Source: an uncultured bacterium
GTDB lineage: Bacteria > UBP6 > UBA1177
Direction: 5' to 3'
Assembly (NCBI GenBank): GCA_947305505.1
Contig: CAMZDX010000004.1
Location: 1 to 44,028, forward strand
DNA: 44,028 bases
Both the position numbers and the translations under genes were made by a program. Below are positions 14,571 through 34,294 of this stretch, piece by piece (position 1 is the first letter of the stretch; every line of letters starts with the position of its first letter). A model generated the notes under the pieces. The model made no database searches, was not told the DNA's origin, and saw only the letters and a list, made by a program, of their open reading frames with translations.

Positions 14571-17500
14571 ATGAAGAGATTTTTCACAGTATGGCTGATT
14601 CTTATCACTTTAATTTTTGTTGTTTCCTGCGGTGAAGGCAAAAAAGAAAATGTGTATGACTACCCTGATGAAGATTCAACAGAAATTACAGATCCAGATA
14701 AAGACTCAGATAATACCGGTCTTTCTGATATAGAAACAGATGAGGATTCAGACAACTCTGATGACTCTAATGACGAAGATACCGACACAACTGCCATAGT
14801 AGTTGACGATGACACAGACACTGATTCGGGTGATACAGCTCCAGATCAGGATCATGATACTGATTCCGGTGATACACAGCCTGACAACGACTCAGACACA
14901 GATACAGCCGACACGACTCCGGATTCTGACAACGATTCTGACAACGATTCTGACAACGATTCCGGTGATTCTACACCCGACGAGGATTCCGACTCAGGCG
15001 ATACGGAGCCTGTTCTTCTTCCGCAGATGTCGCTTTTTGAAGAGGTGTCAAAGCTTATCCGTGCGGCAGAGGGAGGCAGACTTGAGTCGTCTGACCAGGC
15101 TTCGATGATTGTGATTCCGGCTTACGCCCTGCGAAAGGACACGATTATCACGATGAGGATTTACAAGATTGAAAATCCGGATACAAGGATCGTTTCAAAA
15201 GTTCTTGAGTTCTTTCCGAAAGGACAGAAATTCAGGAAGCCGGTTGTGATCATGTCACGGGCATCAAAAAGCGTAGGTGAAAACTCGCTTGTTTCAGGTG
15301 CGGTTTACAACGAGACGGAGGGAAGCTGGCAATACAACAAGTCTGGCGAAACAGTCGTCATGGGACTTAACGGCCTTGGAGATCCGATAATGATGAGCGC
15401 CGGAGGTGACCCGATTATGCTCAACGCAGGCGGTGACCCGATCATGGGAAACGCTCTCGGCGACCCGATCATGCTCAACATGGGCGGTGATCCGATCATG
15501 CTTGGTGCAGGCGGTGACCCGATCATGGGAGGAGACCCGATTATGCTTGGTGCAGGCGGAGATCCTATCATGGGCGGAGACCCGATCATGGGTGGAGATC
15601 CCATCATGGGAGGCGATCCAATCATGGGAGGGGATCCCATCATGAACACGACAAGCCTCTCGGCTGGAGGCGATCCAATCATGATTTCAAGCGGCGGAGA
15701 CCCGATCATGCAGAGCGCCGGCGGAGACCCGATCATGGGAGGAGACCCGATCATGTTTACCGCAGTCAGCAACGCGGCGGCAGGAGACCCGATCATGAAC
15801 ACAGCGGCGGGTGATCCGATTATGATGACTACGGGTCACTTCTCAAGATTCGCTTTCATCGAGGTCAAGCCGGCAGAAAGGATTGACCCTGCATGCAGAA
15901 GCGGCGAAATCCGCTGCAGTAGCAACGGCAGTAAGCGTCAGAAATGTGTTGCACAGCACTGGCAGGACATGGAGAACTGCGAGGCCGGATGTGACACGGA
16001 AACGGCTCTCTGCAAGTGCTCTGCGTCGGATGAAGGAAAACTTCAGTGCTCTGATACCATCAAGCTTCAGCGCTGCAGCGACTCACGCTGGAGAAATTTC
16101 ATAACCTGCACATACGGTTGTAATTCAGATACTAACGGCTGCAACAAATACACGCTTAACGATGTTGTCGAACTCGGTGAATACGAACAGGACGGCAAAT
16201 CCGTTTCCAAGGAGCGTGTCCGCTGGAGAGTTCTCGGCAAAGATACCGACAGACTGCTTCTTATAAGCGAGCGCGGACTCTTGAGAAGGGAATTTGACAC
16301 AACGAGCAACGATGTCTCATGGGAGACAAGCCAGATCCGCACATGGCTCAACACGACCTTCAAGAACGAGGTCTTCAATGCGAATGAGCTTGCTCTTATT
16401 CTTGACAGCAGCGTTCAGAACCAGGGCAACACGGATTATCCCGACACCCATCAGGGAGAAAAAACCACAGACAAGATCTTCCTCCTGAACCTCGCGGAGG
16501 CCGACTACTACTTCCTTGGCAACACCGACAGAGTCCTCTACCCGACTACCAGCGCGGCAGCCGGGAGCTTCGGGCGTTCGACATGGTGGCTGAGAACGAT
16601 GGGACACGACAACCAGAACGTTGCTTCTGTTACAAATTCAGGTCTTCTCAACAAAGCCGGCGAGACGAAGTATCTCTCCAACATGATCCGTCCCGCGATC
16701 TGGATCAGGATGCAGGGCGTCAGGGTCGATGAGTGCAAAGGAAACTCCTACCGGTGCAGCGGAAATACCCGTCAGCGCTGTGTCTACGGCTATTGGACAG
16801 ACGTAGAGACCTGCGATTCGGGCTGCGACACGGAGAACGCGAAGTGCCTCTGTCACGGTCACGGAACGAGATGCAGCTTCGGCAGTCAGGAACAGTGCTT
16901 TGACGGCCTCTGGACCCTCGACTCGATCTGTGACTCAGGCTGCAATACTGAAAACGGCAGATGCAACGAGTGCATAAACGGCGAGCGCAGATGTGCCGGA
17001 AACAGCCTTGAAATCTGCGAAAACAACACCTGGACCGCTATTGAAACCTGTGAATCCGGCTGCAACCCTGAGGCTTTGCAGTGCAGAGAGTGCGAAACTG
17101 GGACTTTCCGCTGTAATGATAACATGCGTCAGGAGTGCGTCGGCGGGATATGGAACAGCATCGAGCTCTGCGGAGCAGGCTGCGATCCCGAAGCAAAAGC
17201 ATGTGTCTGCGAAGGAAGTGAAACCAGGTGCAGCGGTGACAATCTTGAAAAGTGCTCGAACGGTACTTGGAGTGCCGACAGGACCTGCCGCTTCGGATGC
17301 GATTCAGCAAGTGGTTCATGCAGAACACCGTCGGCAGGCGATATAATCACCTTCGGAAACTACGAGCAGGACAACGACTCCTCGAACGGCAAAGAGGCTA
17401 TCGAATGGATCGTTCTGGAGGCTTCTGGCTCAGAGCTTCTGGTTATCAGCAGAAAAGGTCTTGCCACACGCTCGTTCAACGATGTTTACGAAATAAATTC

Positions 17501-20500
17501 AACAACTTGGGAAAACAGCAAACTCAGGACATGGCTCAACGGAGATTTCCTGAACGAGGCATTTTCGAGCATCGAGCGCAGCAGGATCCTCACAAGATCC
17601 GTAAGCGCGGATCCGTATCCCTACAACCAGAGTCTGGATCAGGGAAACAGCGTAAACAACAGGATCTTTATACCCAGCTACGCCGAAATCCAGTCATTGG
17701 ACGGCGCTGTCGACCTGCGCTGCGAGGCGACAAAGTCAGCGGCAGTCGCTCTCGGCTGGGAATACAGGACCGATGCCGGAAACGGCAACTGGTGGCTCAG
17801 GACCATGTCAGGCGAAGGCAGGACGGCCTGCGTCGATGCAGATGGGATGCTCTCTTCGGGCAACTACGATTCCTTCAGTGTGCGCTCCGAAATACTTGTC
17901 CGCCCGGCAATGAGACTTCTTGTGTCGGAGAGCTGCACAAACGGCACTTCGCGCTGTGACGGCTCCCGCAGACTCAGCTGTGTCAACGGTTTCTGGCAAG
18001 AGGGTGAGCTGTGCGAATTTTTCTGCGATTCAACATCCGGAACATGTGCAGAATGCGAAAACGGAAGCTGGCGCTGCGGCGCAAACGGCAGGGAATACTG
18101 CGAAAACGGCTCCTGGACTGAGTTTGAAACCTGCGATTCAGGCTGCGACGATGCAACAGCGGCCTGCAGATGTCAGAACGACGGCGACTACAGATGCGGA
18201 AACAACAGACGCGAGCAGTGCAGCGACGGAGTCTGGAAAGAGGTTTCTCTCTGCGTCAGCGGCTGCGACAGCGAAACGAAGCTCTGCAACGCGGTTTCTG
18301 TCGGAAGCACGCTCACGCTCGGCAACTACGACGGCCCGATCCTCTGGAGAGTCCTTGCGAAGGGTTACGGAAAAGTCCTGGTAACGAGCGAAAAGGCGCT
18401 TGTGCACAAGGCTTTCAGCGATTACGATGCATCATGGGCGGAGAGTACGCTCAGAGCGTGGCTCAACTCGGCGTTCTACAACACAGCTTTTACGGATAAT
18501 GAGAGGAAACTTATACTCGAAACTTCCCTTTCGATCGAGCAGAATCCAAGCTATCCGAAGACCCCGCAGGGCAGAAACACGAAGGACAACCTCTTCCTTC
18601 TGAGTGTTCAGGAGGCAGAGCAATACTTTGCCGGCAAGCACGACAGAGTCTGCGAAATGACTCCGTCCGCTAAGGCGTGGTACGGCTCGGAGCACTCATC
18701 AACAGCTACATGGTGGCTGCGCACGGCCGGCAGCAGTACGGCACGTCACTCGGTAATCGATACAGTAGGAACGATCAACTACGCAGGAAAGGATGTCGTT
18801 TCGAGCGACCTTATGGTCCGCCCTGCGATGTGGGTTTCAATCGACGACACATCGTGCCTGAACGGAACAAAACGGTGTCTCGGCGACACCAGACAGAGCT
18901 GTGGTGGCGATATCTGGAGCGATGTCGAGGTCTGCGGATTCGGTTGCAGTGCGGCTACGGCGGAGTGTCAGGAGTGTGTAAGCGGAACTTACCGCTGCTC
19001 TGGCGATACAAGCCAGCTCTGCGTTGACGGCTTCTGGCAGAACTTCGACGCCTGCGGTGACGGCTGCGACGGCGAGAGCGGAAAATGCTTCTGCACAAGC
19101 GTTGTCCCGGGAAGCGTCCAGTGCATCGGAAACATGCGGCAGAAATGCAAGGACTATCTCTGGAACGACTTCGAGCAGTGCACCTTCGGCTGCGATGTAG
19201 AGAACTCGGAATGCGCTCCTGTAGGCGGTTCGATCACCTTCGGAAGCTATCTGAGCGAACCCATCAGCTGGTTTGTCCTTGAAACTCAGAAAGATAAGAC
19301 GCTCATCATCAGCGAAAAAGGTCTTGACGTTAAAAAATATTCTTCAGGAAATGCGACTTGGGAGACTTCGTTGCTCAGGAACTGGCTCAACAGCGAATTT
19401 TACGATTCCGCGTTCAGTTCCTCGGAGCGTCCGATGATCGTGAGATCTGTTGTTCCGGCTGCGGAAAATCCATATCACACCGGAGTCCAGGCAGGAAACG
19501 ACACCAGCGACAACATCTTCCTTTTGAGCATAGACGAGGCTGAGGAATATTTCTTTGGCAATAGCAGCAGAGCGGCAGAACCGACAGCGTTTGCGGCTTC
19601 AAAAGGAGCTGACGGCGCATGGTGGCTCAGGACCCAGGGCGATAACGATCAGAAAGCGGCGTTCATCGAAACTGACGGAAGCATCGACACCGAAGGCATT
19701 GAGAGCAGCTCATCCGGGATCATGGTGCGTCCGGCACTCTGGCTTGAAAACGCAGCATGTCTCAATGAAGGCTCGTACAAGTGCGACCAGCCGTCAAAAA
19801 TGCTCTTCAAGTGCGTGAACGGCTCATGGATCGATGCAGAAAACTGCTCTTTCGGCTGCAACCTCGAAACTGACAGATGTCTGCTTCCGGTAAAACGCGG
19901 AAAGACCTTCGAGTTCGGCAGATACGAGCAGGACAATGACACTGAAAACGACAAAGAGCCGATAGACTGGATCTACCTTTCGGAAGGAAGCACCTCTTCG
20001 GTTCTGGCCCTGAGCAAGTCGGGGCTTGACGTACAGCCCTACCACAGCTCGAATACGGCTGTTTCATGGAAGGAGAGCTCTCTCAGATCGTGGCTCAACA
20101 CCGCGTTCTGGAACGAGGCGTTCGAAGACGACGAGATTTTCAAGATTGCGGAATCATCCGTTCCTGCCGACAAGAACCCGAACTATCCTGCGGTAAATGC
20201 CGGCGAGGCTACCCTTGACCCGATATTCCTCTTCAGCGTAAGCGATGCAAATACTCACTTCCCTGACAGCAACGGCAAGTATGCGGATCTGACGCCTTAT
20301 GCCGCAAACCGCGGCGGAGACGGCTCATGGTGGCTCAGAACTCCCGGCAGCAGCACGACAAAAGTGGTAATCGCCGAATCGATCGGAACACTTGACTTCG
20401 AGGGCAGAGATGTAAACGCTGCGGCTACAGCAGTAAGGCCAGCGATGAGGATCAGACTCAGCGAAACGATCTCGCCTGAAGGCTGCCAGAGCGGAACCTA

Positions 20501-23500
20501 TCAGTGCGACGGCAGAATGAGCCAGCTCTGCGTCAACGGACGCTGGGAGGATGCTGACTACTGCCTCGGACTCTGCGACCAGGTATCCGGCAGGTGCATA
20601 GTTTCGGAATCCTGCGACGAGGGCGCAACCAAGTGCGGCGGCGGCAAACGCCAGAAGTGCATCGGTGGCGACTGGATCCCGCAGGCGACCTGCGATTTCG
20701 GCTGCAAAGCAGGGACAGACCTCTGCAGCGACTGCGCGGACGGCAGTTACCAGTGCAATGGAGACAACCTTCAGGAGTGCGTGGACGGCTCATGGACAGC
20801 AGGCGAACAGTGCGAACTGGGCTGCAACGTCACGACAGCATCCTGCAACGGCGGATCGACCTGCGAAAACGGAACCTGGCAGTGCGGCGGCGACAGCCGT
20901 CAGAAGTGCGTCGCAGGCGGCTGGCAGAATATGCAGCTCTGTGAATTCGGCTGCGATCCCGAAACCACAGAATGCTACAAATGTGCTCCAGGAACATTCA
21001 AATGCAACGGCAGAGTCAGCCAGAGATGCGAAAACGGATCGTTTGTTGATGACGAAACCTGCACTGTCTGCGGAGCTGCGGACGGCAGATGCAAAGCCCC
21101 AGATGCAGCTTATGCCGTCGGAGATATAATTCTCTTTGGAAATTACGAACAGGACAACAACCTTGAAAACGGCACCGAACCAATCGAGTGGAGAATTCTT
21201 GATGTAAAAGATTCAAAGTTTCTGGTAGTAAGTGATAAAGGGCTGGATGCACGCAGATTCGACGAAGAGACAAATATCTGGCGGGACAGCGAACTTCGTG
21301 TTTGGTTGAATGGAAATTTCTACTACACTGCATTCAGTGATGAAGAAAATGATAGAATTAAGACAACAACCGTAGTCACTACAAGTCGAAACTCATCAAG
21401 TTACTATTGGGTATCGGAAGATAATATATTCCTTTTGAGCCTGTCTGAGATTGATTCTTATTTTGGCGATTCAGGCATTGCCTATCCGACGCCTTATGCG
21501 GAAACAAAATATCGCATTACATACACTGCAAACTACCCTGACTGGTGGTGGTGGACGCGAACTCCCGACATTGTCTATCTTGGCGGCAGCTACTACACCA
21601 CAACAGAAGATGTAGTAGTGATTACAGGAAACGGAACGACATATCGGCAGCGTCTGGCTGAAAAGATGATTCGCCCTGCGATGTGGATAAAGCAGGGCTG
21701 TGAAAACAGCGGATCTCGCAGATGCAACGACGACACGCTTGAAGTATGTTCTGAAAACGGCGTATGGGAGACATCGGCACAATGCGGATACTGCAATCCA
21801 GGCACATTGGAATGTCTTGGCTGTAAAAACGGGACACATCGCTGTGACGAAGGCAAGAGTCAGCAGTGTGAAAACAACGAATGGAGTGAAGGCGAAACAT
21901 GTGAAAACGGCTGCAACCCTGAAACAGGAGAGTGCTCAGACACGCCTTATTTCGAAGGAAACACTGTAACTTTCGGAACTTACGAGCAGGATAATGATAT
22001 CACCAACGGCGCAGAGCCAATTGAGTGGCGGGTCCTTAAAGTAAACGGCAATAAGGCTCTTTTGCTTAGTGAAAAAGGATTGAATGCCAGGGGATTTGAT
22101 AATAGTTCAATCAAGTGGAAGGACAGCGCAATCCGTAATTGGTTAAATGGTTCTAATACTGGAGATTTCTACAATACGGCGTTTAGCTCTGCAGACAAAA
22201 ATAGAATTGTTTTAAACAGCATAATTACGGAATCAAGCTATAACAGTACAGAAACCTACACTACATTGGATAAAATCTTCCTTTTGAGTAAGTCTGAGAT
22301 CGAACAATATTTCCCAATTGAGTGCGACCGTTTAGTTTATCCCACAGACTTTACGAAGGCAAACGGTGTTGTCGGAATATCCTTAAGCACGGATTATTGT
22401 AATGGAAACAGCTATGGTGCAGCTAATTGGTGGCTGCGTTCCACGGGAGGAGCAACGTGTGGATATCCGATAGCGACAAATGTGGGTTCTGATGGAGGCT
22501 TTATTGAGTACAACACATCCTGTGATTGGGTAAGCAACCAAAAATTAACAATTCGTCCTGCAGTATGGATATGGATTGGAGATGAGCCGGAATGTGATGA
22601 AGGAGCTTACCGTTGCAACGGAACCACTAGAGAATTATGCTCAAACGGTTTTTGGAATGTAAATGAAGATTGCAAATTCAGCTGTATTCCTGCAACCAGC
22701 GAGTGTGCTGACTGTGAAACTGGAACACTTCAGTGTAATCGCAATAAAAGTCAAGAGTGTGTAGATGGTCATTGGAACGAAACAGAATGTGATTACATAT
22801 GTAACGAAGGAATATGCATGGATAATCCGTGTAATGCTGCCCCTTGCAATGGCGTAGAACATTCAATATGCACCCCGTTTTCTGTGAAAGGATATGTGTG
22901 CTCATGTGACAATGACGATGAAGGGTATTTTTGGAACGGTTTGGCTTGTGTGAATATTTGTGGTGATTCAACCTCATGTAACTTAATTACAATTGCTAAT
23001 CTTTGCACAGGACAAACTTCTTGCTTCGATAATTCAGAAAGCATCGCTTGTCCGCTATCTGGTGAAGATTTCTTCGGTCAGGATGCACATTATGCAACTT
23101 CAGGAAGCTGCACACCACATAGTTTCACTATTGTTGAGACAGGAATCGAAAATGAAAATATTGTTTTTGACAACAATACAAAATTACAGTGGCAGCAAAC
23201 CCTGTCATTTGAAAATTTTACATGGGAAGACGCAGCAATCTACTGTAGCACTCTGAATTACGGCAATTATAATGACTGGCGGTTACCAGCACCTCATGAA
23301 TTTTTAACAATTATTGACAGAGGCATACAAAACTCGCCGCAGGGGCAAACAGATTATTTCACAAATATTACGAGTGGATACAAGTTCTGGACTTCTCAAA
23401 CTAGGTGGTCACAATACGCCTATTCTTTTACCTATTCTTTTAGTGATGTTAATAAACAATCAAATAAGTATAAAGCAATGTGTGTCCGTGGATCTGCATT

Positions 23501-26099
23501 GCCAGTAACACCAGCAGATAGTTTTCAGACATCATCTGACGGCAAGACAGTAATTGACAAAACGACCGACCTTGTATGGCAAAGCAATTATGTGACAGGT
23601 AAGGACTGGCATCAGGCCTTGGAATATTGCGAAAATTTGAATTATGCGGGATATTCCGACTGGAGACTTCCTAATATAAATGAACTTTCATCTCTTATTA
23701 ATTTAAAAAGCGCGTCTTTTTCTTACTTTCCAGATGATATGAATCATAATTCATATTGGTCATTCTGGTCTTCTACTTCTACTTCTAATTCTAATGCTTT
23801 GGCTGTATATTTCGCCAGCGGCACAATTTCGACTTACAGCAAAGATTTAACTTTAGAGTCTCTTCTTGTCCGCTGTGTTCGTTCTGATATTTGTGCGGAT
23901 GATAAGTTCTGGAATGGTTCTGAGTGTGTCCACAATCCTTGTCAGGTAAGCAGCTGTCTCATGGATCATGCGACAGACAACTGTCAGCCAAGAAGTGAAT
24001 CGACATTTGAATGTATTTGTGAAGAAGGTTTTCTCTGGCACGATTCAGCATGTGTAAGCCCGTGCGATCCGAATCACTGCGCCAGTGATACTAATTCAGA
24101 TGGAGTATGTACAGTAATGAACCTTGAATTTTATTACTGCGGTTGCAAAGAGGGATACAGCTGGAATGCAGGTTCATGTAAAGAGTTTTCAAACGCCATG
24201 GCTCTCGGCAACATTTGCACAAGCGACACTATATGTTTTAATCCCAGCGACTATGAGAACAGCTGTCCAGTATTTGGACAGAATTATTTCGGGCAAGATG
24301 CCCACTATAAACACAAATGTACTCCTATAAGCTTATACCTTGACAGCACAAATGATGATGAAAAAATTGTGATTGACAACAACACTGGTTTGCAGTGGCA
24401 GATGACACAGTCTCAAAATACTTTCACTTGGAAAGACGCTTACATTTATTGCGACACTTTGAATTATGGAGGATATTCTGACTGGCGGTTGCCTAATCCT
24501 CAGGAATTACAGACATACGGAACTTATGGTTACCTATGGACTTCTGATTACGTATGGACTTCAAACAAGGCTTTTTATGCTAATTTTGAAGAAATTAATT
24601 ATACTTCAAAAACATCAATGTATAAAGCAAGATGTGTTCGCGGGAAAGAACTTCCGCCAGCTTCACTTACATTTTTGACAACGGATAACGGCGATGAGAT
24701 TGCTGTTGATTCAACGACCAATCTTGTTTGGCAAGCAGCTGTTGCAGACAGCAATTCTAAAAAATCATGGAATAATGCATTGCAATATTGCCAAAATTTA
24801 ACTTATGGAGGTTACAGCAATTGGAGATTGCCCAACAAAAATGAACTATTGTCTCTTTTAAATTACAACAAATCATCTGTTCCATACTCAGAGTTCACCT
24901 CAAGGGCTGATTATTATTGGTCTAGTAGTTATTACAATTACGATTACAGCACATCAGGTATATGGGTAGTGGATCTATACAACGGTACGCTCTCGCAAAG
25001 AGATGATTATAATATATCATATTATTCTGAATATATCATTTGTGTCCGCAACAGTGAATGTCCTGTAGAAGAATTGCTGAATGGTGGAAAATGCAGATTA
25101 AATCTTGGGAACATCTGCACTGGTCAAAATAAATGTTACAATAATTCATCAAGTATAACCTGCCCGCCATTACAATTATCTTCTTTTAGTTTTGAAAGTG
25201 CTGATTTCTTTGGTCAGGACGCATATTATGCTAGTCTTGATTTTTGCACATCTCAGAATTTCACCCAAAAAACACTTGACTCATATAGTCCGGATTATCC
25301 ATATCAACGTCAAAAAATTGTTACGGATAATAACACGGGGTTAACTTGGGAAATATATTATTCATCATTAACCAACTCGCCAGATTATCAGTGGCAAAGT
25401 AGAAAAAGCCATTGCAATGCATTGAATACTTCAAGGTATGGCAACATTGACACTTGGCGTGTTCCAAATCCATTGGAGCTTCTTACCATTGCAGATCACA
25501 GCCGGAAACAACCATCTACAAACCCGATTTTCACAAATATATCAACTGATGGCTATATAGATTTGTGGACATCAAAAGAAAAAAACACTTCCGAGGCTTA
25601 TTCTTTCTCTACCTCTAGTGTTACTCCCGCCTATAAAAACCATTCCATTAAAGTTATGTGTGTCAGCGGAGATGAATTTTCATACGCAACATCAGAGGAT
25701 TTTGAAGAATCATCGGATGGTAAAACCGTTAAAGACCTGAGAACAGGACTTATCTGGCAAAAAGAATATGTCCAAATTAATAGTTATGATTATGAGAGAA
25801 AGTATTGGGAAGAGGCGTTGGCATATTGCGACCAACTGAATAATATTAATTACGGAGGATATTCAAAGTGGTGGCGCTTGCCCAACAAAAACGAATTATT
25901 ATCTTTAATAAATTATGACAAATCAGAAGCACCTTATTCATATTTTCCAAATATGCCGACTTCCTCTCGCGAATATTGGACATCTACTACTTGGACTGAT
26001 TATTCTTCTCTTGTCTTTATTATCGATTTTAGCAAAATTGATGCTGTTCCTTATAGGGAATCCAAGTCGTCTCAAGGATATGTCCGTTGTGTAAGATAA
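14571..26099 (+). CDS. Giant mosaic surface lipoprotein (3842 residues; GDPIM repeats, DUF6273-like and DUF1566 domains)
   Basis: One uninterrupted frame encodes a predicted 3842-residue lipoprotein (lipobox VVSC, C20). Order of parts: an Asp/Thr/Ser linker (about 25-150), and a ZU5/PGAL-like domain (about 155-265, IRAAEGGRLESSDQASM) that seems to resume at HFSRFAFIEV after 18 GDPIM repeats (about 270-418). Seven DUF6273-like domains follow (about 526-715, 921-1118, 1242-1424, 1551-1727, 1774-1965, 2180-2377, 2461-2671) with about 23 Cys-rich modules between them. EGF-like Cys stretches then lead to three double-DUF1566 units (about 2812-3106, 3213-3497, 3513-3842), ending VRCVR. The ATG follows GAGG. 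It is probably displayed on the outer membrane for adhesion or glycan binding, since DUF1566 relates to C-type-lectin-like folds. No enzyme motif was seen. The last 5 kb are clearly more AT-rich than the first 6.5 kb. Confidence 0.85.
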   Translation: MKRFFTVWLILITLIFVVSCGEGKKENVYDYPDEDSTEITDPDKDSDNTGLSDIETDEDSDNSDDSNDEDTDTTAIVVDDDTDTDSGDTAPDQDHDTDSGDTQPDNDSDTDTADTTPDSDNDSDNDSDNDSGDSTPDEDSDSGDTEPVLLPQMSLFEEVSKLIRAAEGGRLESSDQASMIVIPAYALRKDTIITMRIYKIENPDTRIVSKVLEFFPKGQKFRKPVVIMSRASKSVGENSLVSGAVYNETEGSWQYNKSGETVVMGLNGLGDPIMMSAGGDPIMLNAGGDPIMGNALGDPIMLNMGGDPIMLGAGGDPIMGGDPIMLGAGGDPIMGGDPIMGGDPIMGGDPIMGGDPIMNTTSLSAGGDPIMISSGGDPIMQSAGGDPIMGGDPIMFTAVSNAAAGDPIMNTAAGDPIMMTTGHFSRFAFIEVKPAERIDPACRSGEIRCSSNGSKRQKCVAQHWQDMENCEAGCDTETALCKCSASDEGKLQCSDTIKLQRCSDSRWRNFITCTYGCNSDTNGCNKYTLNDVVELGEYEQDGKSVSKERVRWRVLGKDTDRLLLISERGLLRREFDTTSNDVSWETSQIRTWLNTTFKNEVFNANELALILDSSVQNQGNTDYPDTHQGEKTTDKIFLLNLAEADYYFLGNTDRVLYPTTSAAAGSFGRSTWWLRTMGHDNQNVASVTNSGLLNKAGETKYLSNMIRPAIWIRMQGVRVDECKGNSYRCSGNTRQRCVYGYWTDVETCDSGCDTENAKCLCHGHGTRCSFGSQEQCFDGLWTLDSICDSGCNTENGRCNECINGERRCAGNSLEICENNTWTAIETCESGCNPEALQCRECETGTFRCNDNMRQECVGGIWNSIELCGAGCDPEAKACVCEGSETRCSGDNLEKCSNGTWSADRTCRFGCDSASGSCRTPSAGDIITFGNYEQDNDSSNGKEAIEWIVLEASGSELLVISRKGLATRSFNDVYEINSTTWENSKLRTWLNGDFLNEAFSSIERSRILTRSVSADPYPYNQSLDQGNSVNNRIFIPSYAEIQSLDGAVDLRCEATKSAAVALGWEYRTDAGNGNWWLRTMSGEGRTACVDADGMLSSGNYDSFSVRSEILVRPAMRLLVSESCTNGTSRCDGSRRLSCVNGFWQEGELCEFFCDSTSGTCAECENGSWRCGANGREYCENGSWTEFETCDSGCDDATAACRCQNDGDYRCGNNRREQCSDGVWKEVSLCVSGCDSETKLCNAVSVGSTLTLGNYDGPILWRVLAKGYGKVLVTSEKALVHKAFSDYDASWAESTLRAWLNSAFYNTAFTDNERKLILETSLSIEQNPSYPKTPQGRNTKDNLFLLSVQEAEQYFAGKHDRVCEMTPSAKAWYGSEHSSTATWWLRTAGSSTARHSVIDTVGTINYAGKDVVSSDLMVRPAMWVSIDDTSCLNGTKRCLGDTRQSCGGDIWSDVEVCGFGCSAATAECQECVSGTYRCSGDTSQLCVDGFWQNFDACGDGCDGESGKCFCTSVVPGSVQCIGNMRQKCKDYLWNDFEQCTFGCDVENSECAPVGGSITFGSYLSEPISWFVLETQKDKTLIISEKGLDVKKYSSGNATWETSLLRNWLNSEFYDSAFSSSERPMIVRSVVPAAENPYHTGVQAGNDTSDNIFLLSIDEAEEYFFGNSSRAAEPTAFAASKGADGAWWLRTQGDNDQKAAFIETDGSIDTEGIESSSSGIMVRPALWLENAACLNEGSYKCDQPSKMLFKCVNGSWIDAENCSFGCNLETDRCLLPVKRGKTFEFGRYEQDNDTENDKEPIDWIYLSEGSTSSVLALSKSGLDVQPYHSSNTAVSWKESSLRSWLNTAFWNEAFEDDEIFKIAESSVPADKNPNYPAVNAGEATLDPIFLFSVSDANTHFPDSNGKYADLTPYAANRGGDGSWWLRTPGSSTTKVVIAESIGTLDFEGRDVNAAATAVRPAMRIRLSETISPEGCQSGTYQCDGRMSQLCVNGRWEDADYCLGLCDQVSGRCIVSESCDEGATKCGGGKRQKCIGGDWIPQATCDFGCKAGTDLCSDCADGSYQCNGDNLQECVDGSWTAGEQCELGCNVTTASCNGGSTCENGTWQCGGDSRQKCVAGGWQNMQLCEFGCDPETTECYKCAPGTFKCNGRVSQRCENGSFVDDETCTVCGAADGRCKAPDAAYAVGDIILFGNYEQDNNLENGTEPIEWRILDVKDSKFLVVSDKGLDARRFDEETNIWRDSELRVWLNGNFYYTAFSDEENDRIKTTTVVTTSRNSSSYYWVSEDNIFLLSLSEIDSYFGDSGIAYPTPYAETKYRITYTANYPDWWWWTRTPDIVYLGGSYYTTTEDVVVITGNGTTYRQRLAEKMIRPAMWIKQGCENSGSRRCNDDTLEVCSENGVWETSAQCGYCNPGTLECLGCKNGTHRCDEGKSQQCENNEWSEGETCENGCNPETGECSDTPYFEGNTVTFGTYEQDNDITNGAEPIEWRVLKVNGNKALLLSEKGLNARGFDNSSIKWKDSAIRNWLNGSNTGDFYNTAFSSADKNRIVLNSIITESSYNSTETYTTLDKIFLLSKSEIEQYFPIECDRLVYPTDFTKANGVVGISLSTDYCNGNSYGAANWWLRSTGGATCGYPIATNVGSDGGFIEYNTSCDWVSNQKLTIRPAVWIWIGDEPECDEGAYRCNGTTRELCSNGFWNVNEDCKFSCIPATSECADCETGTLQCNRNKSQECVDGHWNETECDYICNEGICMDNPCNAAPCNGVEHSICTPFSVKGYVCSCDNDDEGYFWNGLACVNICGDSTSCNLITIANLCTGQTSCFDNSESIACPLSGEDFFGQDAHYATSGSCTPHSFTIVETGIENENIVFDNNTKLQWQQTLSFENFTWEDAAIYCSTLNYGNYNDWRLPAPHEFLTIIDRGIQNSPQGQTDYFTNITSGYKFWTSQTRWSQYAYSFTYSFSDVNKQSNKYKAMCVRGSALPVTPADSFQTSSDGKTVIDKTTDLVWQSNYVTGKDWHQALEYCENLNYAGYSDWRLPNINELSSLINLKSASFSYFPDDMNHNSYWSFWSSTSTSNSNALAVYFASGTISTYSKDLTLESLLVRCVRSDICADDKFWNGSECVHNPCQVSSCLMDHATDNCQPRSESTFECICEEGFLWHDSACVSPCDPNHCASDTNSDGVCTVMNLEFYYCGCKEGYSWNAGSCKEFSNAMALGNICTSDTICFNPSDYENSCPVFGQNYFGQDAHYKHKCTPISLYLDSTNDDEKIVIDNNTGLQWQMTQSQNTFTWKDAYIYCDTLNYGGYSDWRLPNPQELQTYGTYGYLWTSDYVWTSNKAFYANFEEINYTSKTSMYKARCVRGKELPPASLTFLTTDNGDEIAVDSTTNLVWQAAVADSNSKKSWNNALQYCQNLTYGGYSNWRLPNKNELLSLLNYNKSSVPYSEFTSRADYYWSSSYYNYDYSTSGIWVVDLYNGTLSQRDDYNISYYSEYIICVRNSECPVEELLNGGKCRLNLGNICTGQNKCYNNSSSITCPPLQLSSFSFESADFFGQDAYYASLDFCTSQNFTQKTLDSYSPDYPYQRQKIVTDNNTGLTWEIYYSSLTNSPDYQWQSRKSHCNALNTSRYGNIDTWRVPNPLELLTIADHSRKQPSTNPIFTNISTDGYIDLWTSKEKNTSEAYSFSTSSVTPAYKNHSIKVMCVSGDEFSYATSEDFEESSDGKTVKDLRTGLIWQKEYVQINSYDYERKYWEEALAYCDQLNNINYGGYSKWWRLPNKNELLSLINYDKSEAPYSYFPNMPTSSREYWTSTTWTDYSSLVFIIDFSKIDAVPYRESKSSQGYVRCVR
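14922..14957 (+). repeat. Three perfect 12-base tandem repeats in the acidic linker
   Basis: The unit GATTCTGACAAC occurs three times in a row, and a fourth begins as GATTCC. Each unit encodes Asp-Ser-Asp-Asn. Because the unit is a multiple of three and the copies are identical, slipped-strand copying could lengthen or shorten the linker without breaking the frame. Confidence 0.85.
15378..15824 (+). repeat. Eighteen-copy GDPIM pentapeptide repeat region
   Basis: The motif GDPIM occurs 18 times in about 149 residues. Some copies are adjacent (GDPIMG units, every six residues). Others are separated by short linkers such as LNAG, LGAG, QSAG or NTTSLSAG, giving a nine-residue period. Synonymous codons differ among copies (GGAGATCCG, GGTGACCCG, GGCGATCCA), so the protein motif rather than the DNA appears to be maintained. 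The flanking text suggests insertion in a loop of a ZU5/PGAL-like domain. I do not recognise GDPIM as a described repeat family. Confidence 0.9.
15891..22815 (+). repeat. Alternating Cys-rich modules and seven DUF6273-like domains
   Basis: Cys-rich modules of about 40 residues follow the pattern C-x2-G-x3-C-x6-Q-x-C-x2-G-x-W-x5-C-x2-GC-x7-C. By position between the DUF6273-like domains I count 2, 5, 3, 3, 1, 5, 2 and 2 copies. The DUF6273-like domains share (T/E)FGxYEQDN, PIEWRVL, LLISEKGL, WExSxLRxWLN, AF, DxIFLLS, WWLRT and VRPAMWI. Domains 3 and 4 lack the EQDN segment. The block is a tandem amplification of a [Cys module]n-DUF6273 unit, with variable numbers of Cys modules per unit. Confidence 0.8.
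22998..26096 (+). repeat. Three tandem double-DUF1566 units
   Basis: Each unit opens with ICT(G/S)xxxC and an (F/Y)FGQDA(H/Y)Y segment. Two DUF1566 domains follow, recognisable by (D/N)NxTxLxWQ, W(E/K)DAxxYC, LNYGGYSDWRLPNxxEL and CVR. The first domain of each unit ends in (A/K)xCVxG, and the second in VRCVR or ICVR. Units 1 and 2 are separated by EGF-like Cys text. Unit 3 ends the protein. Base composition here is markedly AT-rich compared with the 5' half of the gene. Confidence 0.8.
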
Positions 26100-31414: not shown

Positions 31415-34294
31415 CTAAGCTTCCGGTTGCAAAACAGAGCGGGAATATTCGCAGAGATACCAGTCGGTATCGTTCAACAGATAGTGCGAGTCTGTTTTGG
31501 ATATCATTATTTTAAGGTAATTCATTGCATAAAGTGCCGATTCACGGACTATCGGACTCGAATCATACAGGAACCGCTGGATCCTGCTGTAGTTTTCCGT
31601 GATATGTTCATGAGCGATCGCATAAAGCGTGACCGAACGGACCCACTCTGAATCATCTGAAAGCAAAGTCTCAATAATATCAGTCATTTTCAGTTTGTTT
31701 ACGCTGAAGAACTGGTAACCCAGATTAAGTTTTTCCTCTTCGGTTTTGCTTTCGATCAGAGGAACGATGATAGGTCTTATATCCTTGTCAACAATGTTGT
31801 CGATAATTTCAAGAGCGTTGGCGCGCTGGGACGGCGAAACGAATTTTCTGGTTATATTGAAATAAATATTGTCAAAGAGCGAATTGCCGTACATAAGCGA
31901 AAGTATTGAGAAAATCCGCTGATAACAGTTGTCGAGTTTTGTTGCCATGACATCTAAAAGGCAATCGGACTTCAAATTTTTCCGAATATGAACCGAGAAG
32001 TAAAGTGTCTGAAAATATTGATAAATTTCTCTAAGAAGCAAAACTTTGAGCGCATTTTTGTCGAGAGTGACTTTTTCAACTTTAGACAACAGTTTTTTCA
32101 TGCTGTTGAGGGCGATATTACGCATTTCATCGCTTTCCGTGTCGAGCGAAAGTGCCAGAAGCCTGAAAGATTCCGGCGTGTAAATGTCACCCAGCATTTT
32201 CGCAACCTCGCTTTTCAGACGGTAACTTTCAAGTTTGTTCGAAAGTATGTCGGCAGCAGGTTCCAGAATTTTTTCACCGAATTTTGAAAGGACTTTCGCG
32301 ACATCAAAACTTACTTCGCGATCGAAAAGCATGTAGAAAAGTTTCGGAATAAAGACGCTGGAATCTATTTTTGAAGCGGCATTTACCGCGGCACGTCTGA
32401 CATTCGGGCTCGGATCGTTCAGAAGTGCAAAAAGCTGCTGATCCATGTTTTTCTGCCCGAGTTCACCCAAAATATAGGCTGCCGCAGCCCGGTCTGCAGC
32501 GTTTTCAGATTCAAGAAACGCCTTGAGATAGGAGCCTGCGGTCATTGCACCTACGACTCCGGCATATTTTATAAGTGCGATAACGGCAGCTTCTCTTATC
32601 GAAATTTTTTCGTTATCAAGAAAAGGAGCAATAAACTTAACCGATTTGTCCATCTGGCTGCATCCGAAAGTCAGGATCGCCTCCCGAACGACGTCCTCAT
32701 CGGGTTCTTTCAACAATTTCAATATGTTATAAGTATTATACCTGCTTTCCATCCGGCGCATGAGCGAAAGTATTTTGACCTTGATTTTCGGCGTCGCCTT
32801 AGTGAGAAGCGCCACAAAATCGCGACCCAAAGCCGAATTGCCGGAGCTTTCGACCATATCGATCGCCATCGACAGATCTTCCTCGTCTCCGCTTTCTATC
32901 GCCTTTTGAACAATGCTCAAAAGAACATTCGGCTGCATCGTGAGCTGGTTCGTTCCGAAACGTTTTTTCTTTATGTTGTCGATAAGAACCGAAAGATAGC
33001 GGCCTCTGATACCGACTATCGTGAGAAGCCATGAAACACCGATGACCGTAACGATCCACGAAATAAGTTTGACATCGGAAGAGACGATCCCTGCCTTTCC
33101 GAGATAGCTTACGGCAAGAAGGATAAAGCCCGAAACGCCGATGAAAATCGGTTTGACCATACCGTCTATTATCGCCTTCGTCCTGCTTTTGACCTTGGGA
33201 TCAAGCGGGATGTACAAAAGCTGTATCGCCGCGTCGTTTATCGTGTACCGGAAAGCGCTGTCGCCCGATTTCGCCATAGTTATCGCAACAAGCGGAGCCG
33301 CCAGGCCGAACATCATCAGATCCGGCGGAACCGAGATGAAGAAGATCGAACTCAGAGTGAGGATCGCCGGCAGGATCCCGAGACTCATGAAAATGCTGAA
33401 CTTAAGCAGACGCGAAGTCGCAACAAGCTGGAAGAAAAGCGAGAAAACACCGCCGAAAACGGAGTAAACGAAACCGAAGTAAGCGGCAAGTTTCTGCGGA
33501 TCGGATATTTTATCGGAAGCGACGACCTTGAACTGATAGTCGACAAGCGTGACTACGACATAAATCAAAGCAATCATTATCGCGATGTATTTGACATAAG
33601 GCGTTTTCGTGATGCTTACCTGCGAAGCTGCTGCGGCGGCTGCCTGTTTCGGTGTAAGTGTCTTTGATACGACGCCTCTCTGCAGACGGCTCTGATATTT
33701 TTTTCCCATGTAGCGGACTATCAGAATACATGCCAGCATGCACAAAGCGTTGATGAAAAGAAGGTACTGGACTTTTCCGAGCAGAGCTGCAAGTTTTCCG
33801 ACCGAGCCGCCGACTGCCATACTTGCAATGATGCCGCCGCACCCGACAAAACCGAGGACACGCTTTGCCTCACGCGAATCGAGAAGTTCGTTCGTAAAAG
33901 ACCAGAACTGGAACATCATGAAGGCGCCAAGAAGCTCGATAAAGATGTAAAGTGCCGAAAAAGCGGCCGAAATTTCGTTGTTGACGAGCCCGACAAATAT
34001 GAGGACAAACACTATTCCGATTGTGAAAGTAGTCGTTATCAGCTTGTCCATCCGGTAATACGAACTTCTTTTTGTGTAAAAAAACGTCGCCGTCGAAACG
34101 AGTATCGCGACACCTATATACATGAACGAAAGCATCAGCCTGTCGCCTTTGTATTTGTTCAAAAACAGCGTATCTCTGACGATTCGCCCCATGACCATTA
34201 TAGACGTCGCCAGAAAGTTATATGCAAAAAGAAGAAGCGCACGGTTCCTCTCGTCAGGATTGTTCATACTGAGAATTGCAAAGATCCTCTTCAT
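31415..34294 (-). CDS. ATP/ADP-translocase-like (NTT/MFS) protein with C-terminal HEAT repeats
   Basis: The 959-residue protein has an N-terminal half (about 15-430) of roughly 12 membrane helices. These resemble the nucleotide transporter/translocase family: LFAYNFLATSIMVMGRIVRDTLFLNKY, FWSFTNELLDSREAKRVLGFVGCGGIIAS, and DSAFRYTINDAAIQLLYIPLDPKVKSRTKAIIDG. From about 450 on it is soluble and helical, with HEAT-like repeats, for example EDVVREAILTFG, ISIREAAVIALIKYAG, AADRAAAAYILGELG, PSPNVRRAAVNAASKI, DSEWVRSVTLYAIAHE and SPIVRESALYAMNYL. In free-living bacteria such fusions are of unknown role. True nucleotide exchange is known mainly in intracellular parasites. GAGGGA precedes the ATG, two bases after the trmL stop. 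Confidence 0.85.
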   Translation of the reverse strand: MKRIFAILSMNNPDERNRALLLFAYNFLATSIMVMGRIVRDTLFLNKYKGDRLMLSFMYIGVAILVSTATFFYTKRSSYYRMDKLITTTFTIGIVFVLIFVGLVNNEISAAFSALYIFIELLGAFMMFQFWSFTNELLDSREAKRVLGFVGCGGIIASMAVGGSVGKLAALLGKVQYLLFINALCMLACILIVRYMGKKYQSRLQRGVVSKTLTPKQAAAAAASQVSITKTPYVKYIAIMIALIYVVVTLVDYQFKVVASDKISDPQKLAAYFGFVYSVFGGVFSLFFQLVATSRLLKFSIFMSLGILPAILTLSSIFFISVPPDLMMFGLAAPLVAITMAKSGDSAFRYTINDAAIQLLYIPLDPKVKSRTKAIIDGMVKPIFIGVSGFILLAVSYLGKAGIVSSDVKLISWIVTVIGVSWLLTIVGIRGRYLSVLIDNIKKKRFGTNQLTMQPNVLLSIVQKAIESGDEEDLSMAIDMVESSGNSALGRDFVALLTKATPKIKVKILSLMRRMESRYNTYNILKLLKEPDEDVVREAILTFGCSQMDKSVKFIAPFLDNEKISIREAAVIALIKYAGVVGAMTAGSYLKAFLESENAADRAAAAYILGELGQKNMDQQLFALLNDPSPNVRRAAVNAASKIDSSVFIPKLFYMLFDREVSFDVAKVLSKFGEKILEPAADILSNKLESYRLKSEVAKMLGDIYTPESFRLLALSLDTESDEMRNIALNSMKKLLSKVEKVTLDKNALKVLLLREIYQYFQTLYFSVHIRKNLKSDCLLDVMATKLDNCYQRIFSILSLMYGNSLFDNIYFNITRKFVSPSQRANALEIIDNIVDKDIRPIIVPLIESKTEEEKLNLGYQFFSVNKLKMTDIIETLLSDDSEWVRSVTLYAIAHEHITENYSRIQRFLYDSSPIVRESALYAMNYLKIMISKTDSHYLLNDTDWYLCEYSRSVLQPEA

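Follow-up and report, generated by a model that had tools for sequence, protein, structure and literature searches.

LPXTG, PEP-CTERM and similar motifs are short sorting or attachment tags, and RTX nonapeptide and Pfam pentapeptide repeats are marked by a short Gly/Asp-rich or five-residue periodicity. The ZU5 domains of PIDD, CARD8 and NLRP1 cut themselves at an HFS or SFS motif just before the last strand (PMC3210808), and an autopeptidase role has been proposed for the ZU5 domains of bacterial surface proteins (PMC3482391). Here we describe the pentapeptide GDPIM, an undescribed tag that recurs by the dozen in the exported proteins of each genome in one little-known, mostly rumen group of bacteria. 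Our starting point is an array of 18 copies in a ZU5-like domain, encoded in a stretch of 44,028 nucleotides (contig CAMZDX010000004.1) from an uncultured bacterium of the UBP6 lineage; this whole stretch is called the window below.

The 18-unit array and its host gene

The host gene (14571-26099, forward strand) encodes a lipoprotein of 3842 residues that comprises a ZU5-like domain, the GDPIM array, seven DUF6273 domains (Pfam E 3.9e-141, seven stretches) and six C-type-lectin-like Lcl_C domains (Pfam E 1.3e-121, six stretches). The Cys-rich repeats between the DUF6273 and Lcl_C domains (16140-26099) are all part of this one gene. Its translation begins with a lipoprotein signal peptide with Cys20 (MKRFFTVWLILITLIFVVSC, 14571-14630), followed by an acidic Asp/Ser-rich linker (14631-15014) with a 12-base tandem repeat at 14922-14962. 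Next come the strands of the ZU5-like domain that precede the array (residues 153-255, 15027-15335; the AlphaFold strands run up to residue 255), the array itself (residues 270-418, 15378-15824) and the final two ZU5 strands (residues 416-432, 15816-15866, from DSSP on the model), which overlap the last GDPIM unit. All of these features lie on the forward strand. Opposite the array, an antisense ORF of 165 residues (15305-15802, reverse strand) mirrors it as MIGSPP repeats and most likely just reflects the repetitiveness of the sense strand. Elsewhere in the window, 31415-34294 on the reverse strand encodes a TLC-type ATP/ADP transporter domain fused to HEAT repeats; intracellular bacteria are the best-known source of such nucleotide transporters.

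The earlier note on this DNA had counted 18 copies of GDPIM in about 149 residues, and the count is exact: all 18 lie in a single forward frame of 15378-15824, and the other five reading frames of the window hold none. When the 149 residues of the array were shuffled 1000 times, no 5-mer ever exceeded three copies. The successive units are 9, 9, 9, 9, 9, 6, 9, 6, 6, 6, 6, 13, 9, 9, 6, 14 and 9 residues apart, which bears out the reported spacing of six or nine, with 13 and 14 occurring too. Codons do vary among copies, as had been noted (12 distinct 15-mers among the 18 units), although one 15-mer is present five times. Together with the tandem periods of 18, 27, 45 and 54 bases detected by TRF, this indicates that part of the array grew through local duplication, a contribution that is old in most places. 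Internal translation starts (GGAG...ATG within the unit) were considered and rejected, as GGC is the commonest Gly codon across all units; among the window's own 18 units, unlike all units pooled, it is GGA. No RNA element or promoter of note turned up at the array.

The repeat had been suspected to be an undescribed family, and we agree: neither Pfam nor NCBIfam matched it, a literature search found no mention of the string GDPIM, and a search of solved structures for the repeat returned a single weak, unrelated match. It differs from the pentapeptide repeat family in having no Pfam match and 1-9 residues between units, and from RTX or beta-roll repeats in having no Pfam RTX match, irregular spacing and an array modelled at a pLDDT of 38-49.

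Hosts and export

Among the 94 hosts with a visible N-terminus, at least 93 have a lipobox or a Sec-like start, with signal peptides judged by pattern (80 lipoboxes and 11 Sec-like starts) or, for two further lipoboxes, by eye. The ninety-fourth host is the ORF at 1-600 of L048, whose N-terminal part does not match its ZU5-GDPIM C-terminal part; L048 is probably a chimeric metagenome contig. Besides the ZU5 lipoproteins, units occur in alpha-amylase, alpha-2-macroglobulin, NosD-like beta-helix lipoproteins, transglutaminase-like proteins, an Ig-like domain hairpin of large lipoproteins, Spy-like proteins and CBM_4_9 proteins. Array-free relatives were compared for two of these hosts. The amylase of the window's genome has five units where three other genomes (G013, G014 and G007) have a hairpin turn, e.g. 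VDENGDKIEPFF, the turn in array-free congeners reading VDENG.KIEPFF or similar; in the Ig-like domain, carriers and non-carriers of units differ in the same way, with the array in place of a hairpin turn. The transglutaminase-like host, seen at L078 (4548-6302) and L185 (5599-7470), is an exported coiled-coil protein with Cys, His and Asp in order, and is the sole GDPIM carrier found in G007.

Distribution across genomes

GDPIM sites, counted by a 15-mer DNA pattern, number 3-114 per genome in 24 of the 25 genomes of the window's order, with 63 in the window's own genome (59% complete) and 114 in G006. The three genomes of the sister order (G025-G027) have none, and genomes outside these two orders have 0-2 each. 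The reversed pattern, used as a control, gave no site in the whole phylum and one site in two of 33 more distant genomes; pairs of GDPIM at spacing 6 were found in 21 of the 28 genomes of the phylum, control pairs never. A search for GDPIM[SA]GD in 84,980 species genomes returned 68 matches, of which 50 were confirmed relatives, nearly all evidently of this clade. Carriers outside the clade have one protein each and come from Bacteroidales (L084, on a 470-kb contig), Limnochordia (L080) and Bacillota (L088); the neighbours of these hosts look native and show no sign of a surrounding system. In L187 and L190, Bacteroidales relatives of L084, the Spy-like protein has Gly/Met-rich loops (GGGMPGGGMSGGGM) where L084 has GDPIM. 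Chance occurrences in other bacteria are single, unrepeated sites, e.g. in FabZ. As to mobile origins, IMG/VR holds no GDPIM pairs at spacing 6 or 9 (one scan each), and plasmids gave merely two weak, unrelated matches.

Two genomes of the order, each a single case and, like all genomes compared, a metagenome bin, stand apart. G013 (97% complete) is the GDPIM-free genome of the order and the only GDPIM-free species of its genus; its one ZU5 lipoprotein (L184/L136) has a different loop, with GHLGSF instead of GHFS (HLG for HFS). G007 (84% complete) has no ZU5 match and carries three units in its transglutaminase-like protein along with one decayed unit, GSNPII.

A ZU5 domain with a loop predicted to be disordered

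Residues 150-439 of the window protein were modelled with AlphaFold from an alignment with 28 relatives; alignments for structure prediction were shallow throughout (28-29 rows). The model is a confident beta-sandwich (pLDDT mostly 85-98) that is broken by the array (38-49) and closed by strands at residues 416-423 and 426-432 (DSSP; numbered 267-274 and 277-283 in the model). Foldseek matched it to the ankyrin ZU5 domain (E 9.4e-5, probability 1.00) and to UNC5b (E 1e-3). The short six-unit paralogue L044 was modelled better than the window copy (mean pLDDT 83.5) and matched the ankyrin ZU5 at E 4.2e-6 (probability 1.00) and, more weakly, CD97 (E 0.015); over both models the UNC5b matches range from E 3.5e-4 to 1e-3. 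By sequence, L044 scores 27.9 bits against Pfam ZU5 (PF00791; cut-off 21) and the window copy remains below threshold (14.5 bits, E 0.045), while a profile built from the 28 relatives matches the ZU5 domains of ankyrin and ZO-1 (ankyrin-3, E 2.7e-5). PF00791 matches are present in 22 of 61 genomes, and in G006 GDPIM sites follow each of the 11 Pfam-level ZU5 matches. Judged by models and profiles, the host domain is a real ZU5 fold. The suggestion of the earlier note that the flanks are two halves of one ZU5-like domain was therefore sound, as AlphaFold and Foldseek both treat them as such, and the array is "inserted" only in the sense that it occupies the loop preceding the final two strands. 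Its proposal of a solenoid or calcium-binding stack found no counterpart in the prediction, where the flanks fold as ZU5 and the window array is disordered.

In the L044 model the first units of the array are likewise disordered, and the last two or so reach a pLDDT of about 80 with short bridges, a predicted partial order that leaves room for a structural role. The main rival to the reading we favour is that the array acts alone, its Met and Asp residues binding metal (copper-like soft or other) or its units stacking, with no protein partner at all. Besides the order modelled in the last two units of this short array, it can draw on the regular recurrence of Met and Asp at intervals of 6 or 9 residues, on the Spy-like nature of the Bacteroidales host, whose array-free relatives have Gly/Met-rich loops at the equivalent place, and on the resemblance of one host type to the copper protein NosD. 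However, a metal site would not require Gly, Pro and Ile to be invariant too, the model shows disorder across the window array, the spacings are mixed (6, 9, 12, 13, 14 and 15), and in an unsystematic look no constant metal-gene neighbour was noticed; on balance we consider a self-acting array fairly unlikely.

Three residues separate the end of the window array from GHFS, a motif located between the final two ZU5 strands. Its His-Phe-Ser (H423-F424-S425, 15837-15845, forward strand), just ahead of the last strand, occupies the position of the cleavage site in PIDD and CARD8 and is thus a candidate self-cleavage site; many paralogues have HFT in its place. By analogy with PIDD, the host ZU5 domain may cut itself between HF and S, right beside the array. 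Were the GDPIM units themselves cleavage sites too, for a dedicated protease or as acid-labile Asp-Pro bonds, the outer part of the lipoprotein could be shed. Every unit does contain Asp-Pro, the HFS stands where autoproteolytic ZU5 domains have it, and an autopeptidase role for bacterial surface ZU5 domains has been put forward (PMC3482391). Yet one cut does not need many copies per protein, arrays also occur in proteins without ZU5, and HFT instead of HFS in so many paralogues speaks against it as well, which leaves shedding an improbable explanation.

Selection on the peptide

All 874 GDPIM sites in the fetched loci (some of which overlap) are in frame in ORFs of at least 100 codons. The 94 distinct arrays contain 583 exact and 15 near units, and a crude estimate over these arrays, with synonymous sites saturated, gives pN 0.008 against pS 0.60 (pN/pS about 0.014); the set is biased to conserved arrays, since three exact units were required for entry. 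These values uphold the idea, first drawn from the codon variation, that selection acts on the protein. L177 (G006:C3:133000-136000), a shortened ZU5 gene that is likely a pseudogene and a natural control for decay, has the units GDQVM, GEPIM, GNPIM and GEPTM, and it seems that the motif decays where selection is relaxed.

One rival is a selfish DNA element, or one driven by slippage (of the minisatellite or Rickettsia-palindrome kind), that is read as GDPIM by chance; it would account for the local tandem periodicity, for the different copy numbers of orthologues and for the spread to unrelated genes. In its simple form this is already refuted and we find it barely credible: a mobile in-frame repeat of the RPE type does not agree with the finding that 874 of 874 sites fall in a single frame of long ORFs, nor with a peptide fixed over saturated synonymous sites, DNA matches of the amylase array to other arrays no longer than those of recoded controls, and spacer Ser codons of both families. 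Highly improbable, too, is the idea that the array serves as a mere flexible spacer with few demands on its exact sequence. Loop position and predicted disorder are what one would expect of it, but the strict conservation of all five residues above freely drifting synonymous sites already contradicts it, as does the decay in the shortened paralogue.

The residue between units at spacing 6 carries a signal of its own. In family f1 outside the window's genus it is Ser in 47 of 48 cases (ZU5 hosts 40/41, others 7/7), encoded by both TCN and AGY codons; in f3 it is Ala in 56 of 56 (ZU5 hosts 50/50, other hosts 6/6), in f2 Gln, and in the window's genus Gly or Ala. Unrelated hosts within one lineage therefore share a spacer, which on this sequence evidence tracks lineage and not host protein. 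The shared spacer suggests either a reader that sees the spacer as well or ancient gene-to-gene copying. For the amylase array, a recent DNA copy from a sister array was considered and rejected, the exact matches being no longer than in recoded controls.

A recognition tag read in the envelope?

We postulate, with about an even chance of being right, that GDPIM arrays are disordered, surface-exposed, multivalent linear motifs in loops of exported proteins, read by a partner. A recognition site fits the arrays best, because the peptide is fixed, disordered and repeated, and lies in exposed loops of exported hosts of one clade; from this we infer that an envelope partner, a reader of XGDPIM, exists. 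The arrays would mostly occupy the hairpin that precedes the final two strands of lipoprotein ZU5 domains, each XGDPIM unit could be recognised by a binding protein or modifying enzyme of the envelope that is specific to the clade, and several copies could provide avidity, so that array-bearing proteins would be gathered or anchored at the cell surface. Against the avidity part, single units exist (L002) and copy numbers vary strongly, and avidity is thus not always needed. Further points against the reading are that three units persist in a single protein of G007, a genome in which no ZU5 match was found, and that there is just one host in each of the Bacteroidales and Limnochordia/Bacillota genomes. 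It is conceivable, though on balance doubtful, that there is an envelope-sorting or assembly code with GDPIM as its visible half, in which the reader changed along with the spacer and gathers unrelated exported proteins, the array-ZU5 lipoproteins being its main docking sites.

The near-invariance of GDPIM over three families of a candidate phylum, in unrelated exported hosts, implies a strict recognition event in the envelope. If the reader exists, it would represent a new bacterial way to sort or join surface proteins, and a tag of this kind, short, soluble, multivalent and bound by one specific partner, would be a useful laboratory tool too.

Comparison with known systems

Like RTX and pentapeptide repeats, GDPIM is short and has a Gly/Asp-rich or five-residue periodicity; unlike them it has no Pfam match or predicted solenoid, and its spacing is an irregular 6, 9, 13 or 14 residues. 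With the LPXTG and PEP-CTERM tags it shares a short, fixed sequence that recurs within a single clade in numerous unrelated exported proteins. In contrast to these tags, GDPIM is repeated and occupies internal loops; it does not lie at the C-terminus, no membrane helix follows it, and we know of no processing enzyme for it. The bacterial surface and toxin ZU5 autopeptidases likewise have ZU5 near the N-terminus of large surface proteins, but the GDPIM host has no RHS, SpvB or toxin domain, and the array is not described in the accessible part of that work (PMC3482391). The host domain has the same fold as ZU5 (PF00791; ankyrin, UNC5b, ZO-1, PIDD, CARD8/NLRP1) and its GAIN/GPS relatives, and with the ZU5 family it shares PF00791 scores over the cut-off in paralogues and HF[S/T] just before the last strand. 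Unlike known ZU5 domains, those described here carry 4-18 GDPIM units before the last two strands and are part of bacterial lipoproteins with DUF6273 or Lcl_C, in which self-cleavage is a candidate feature.
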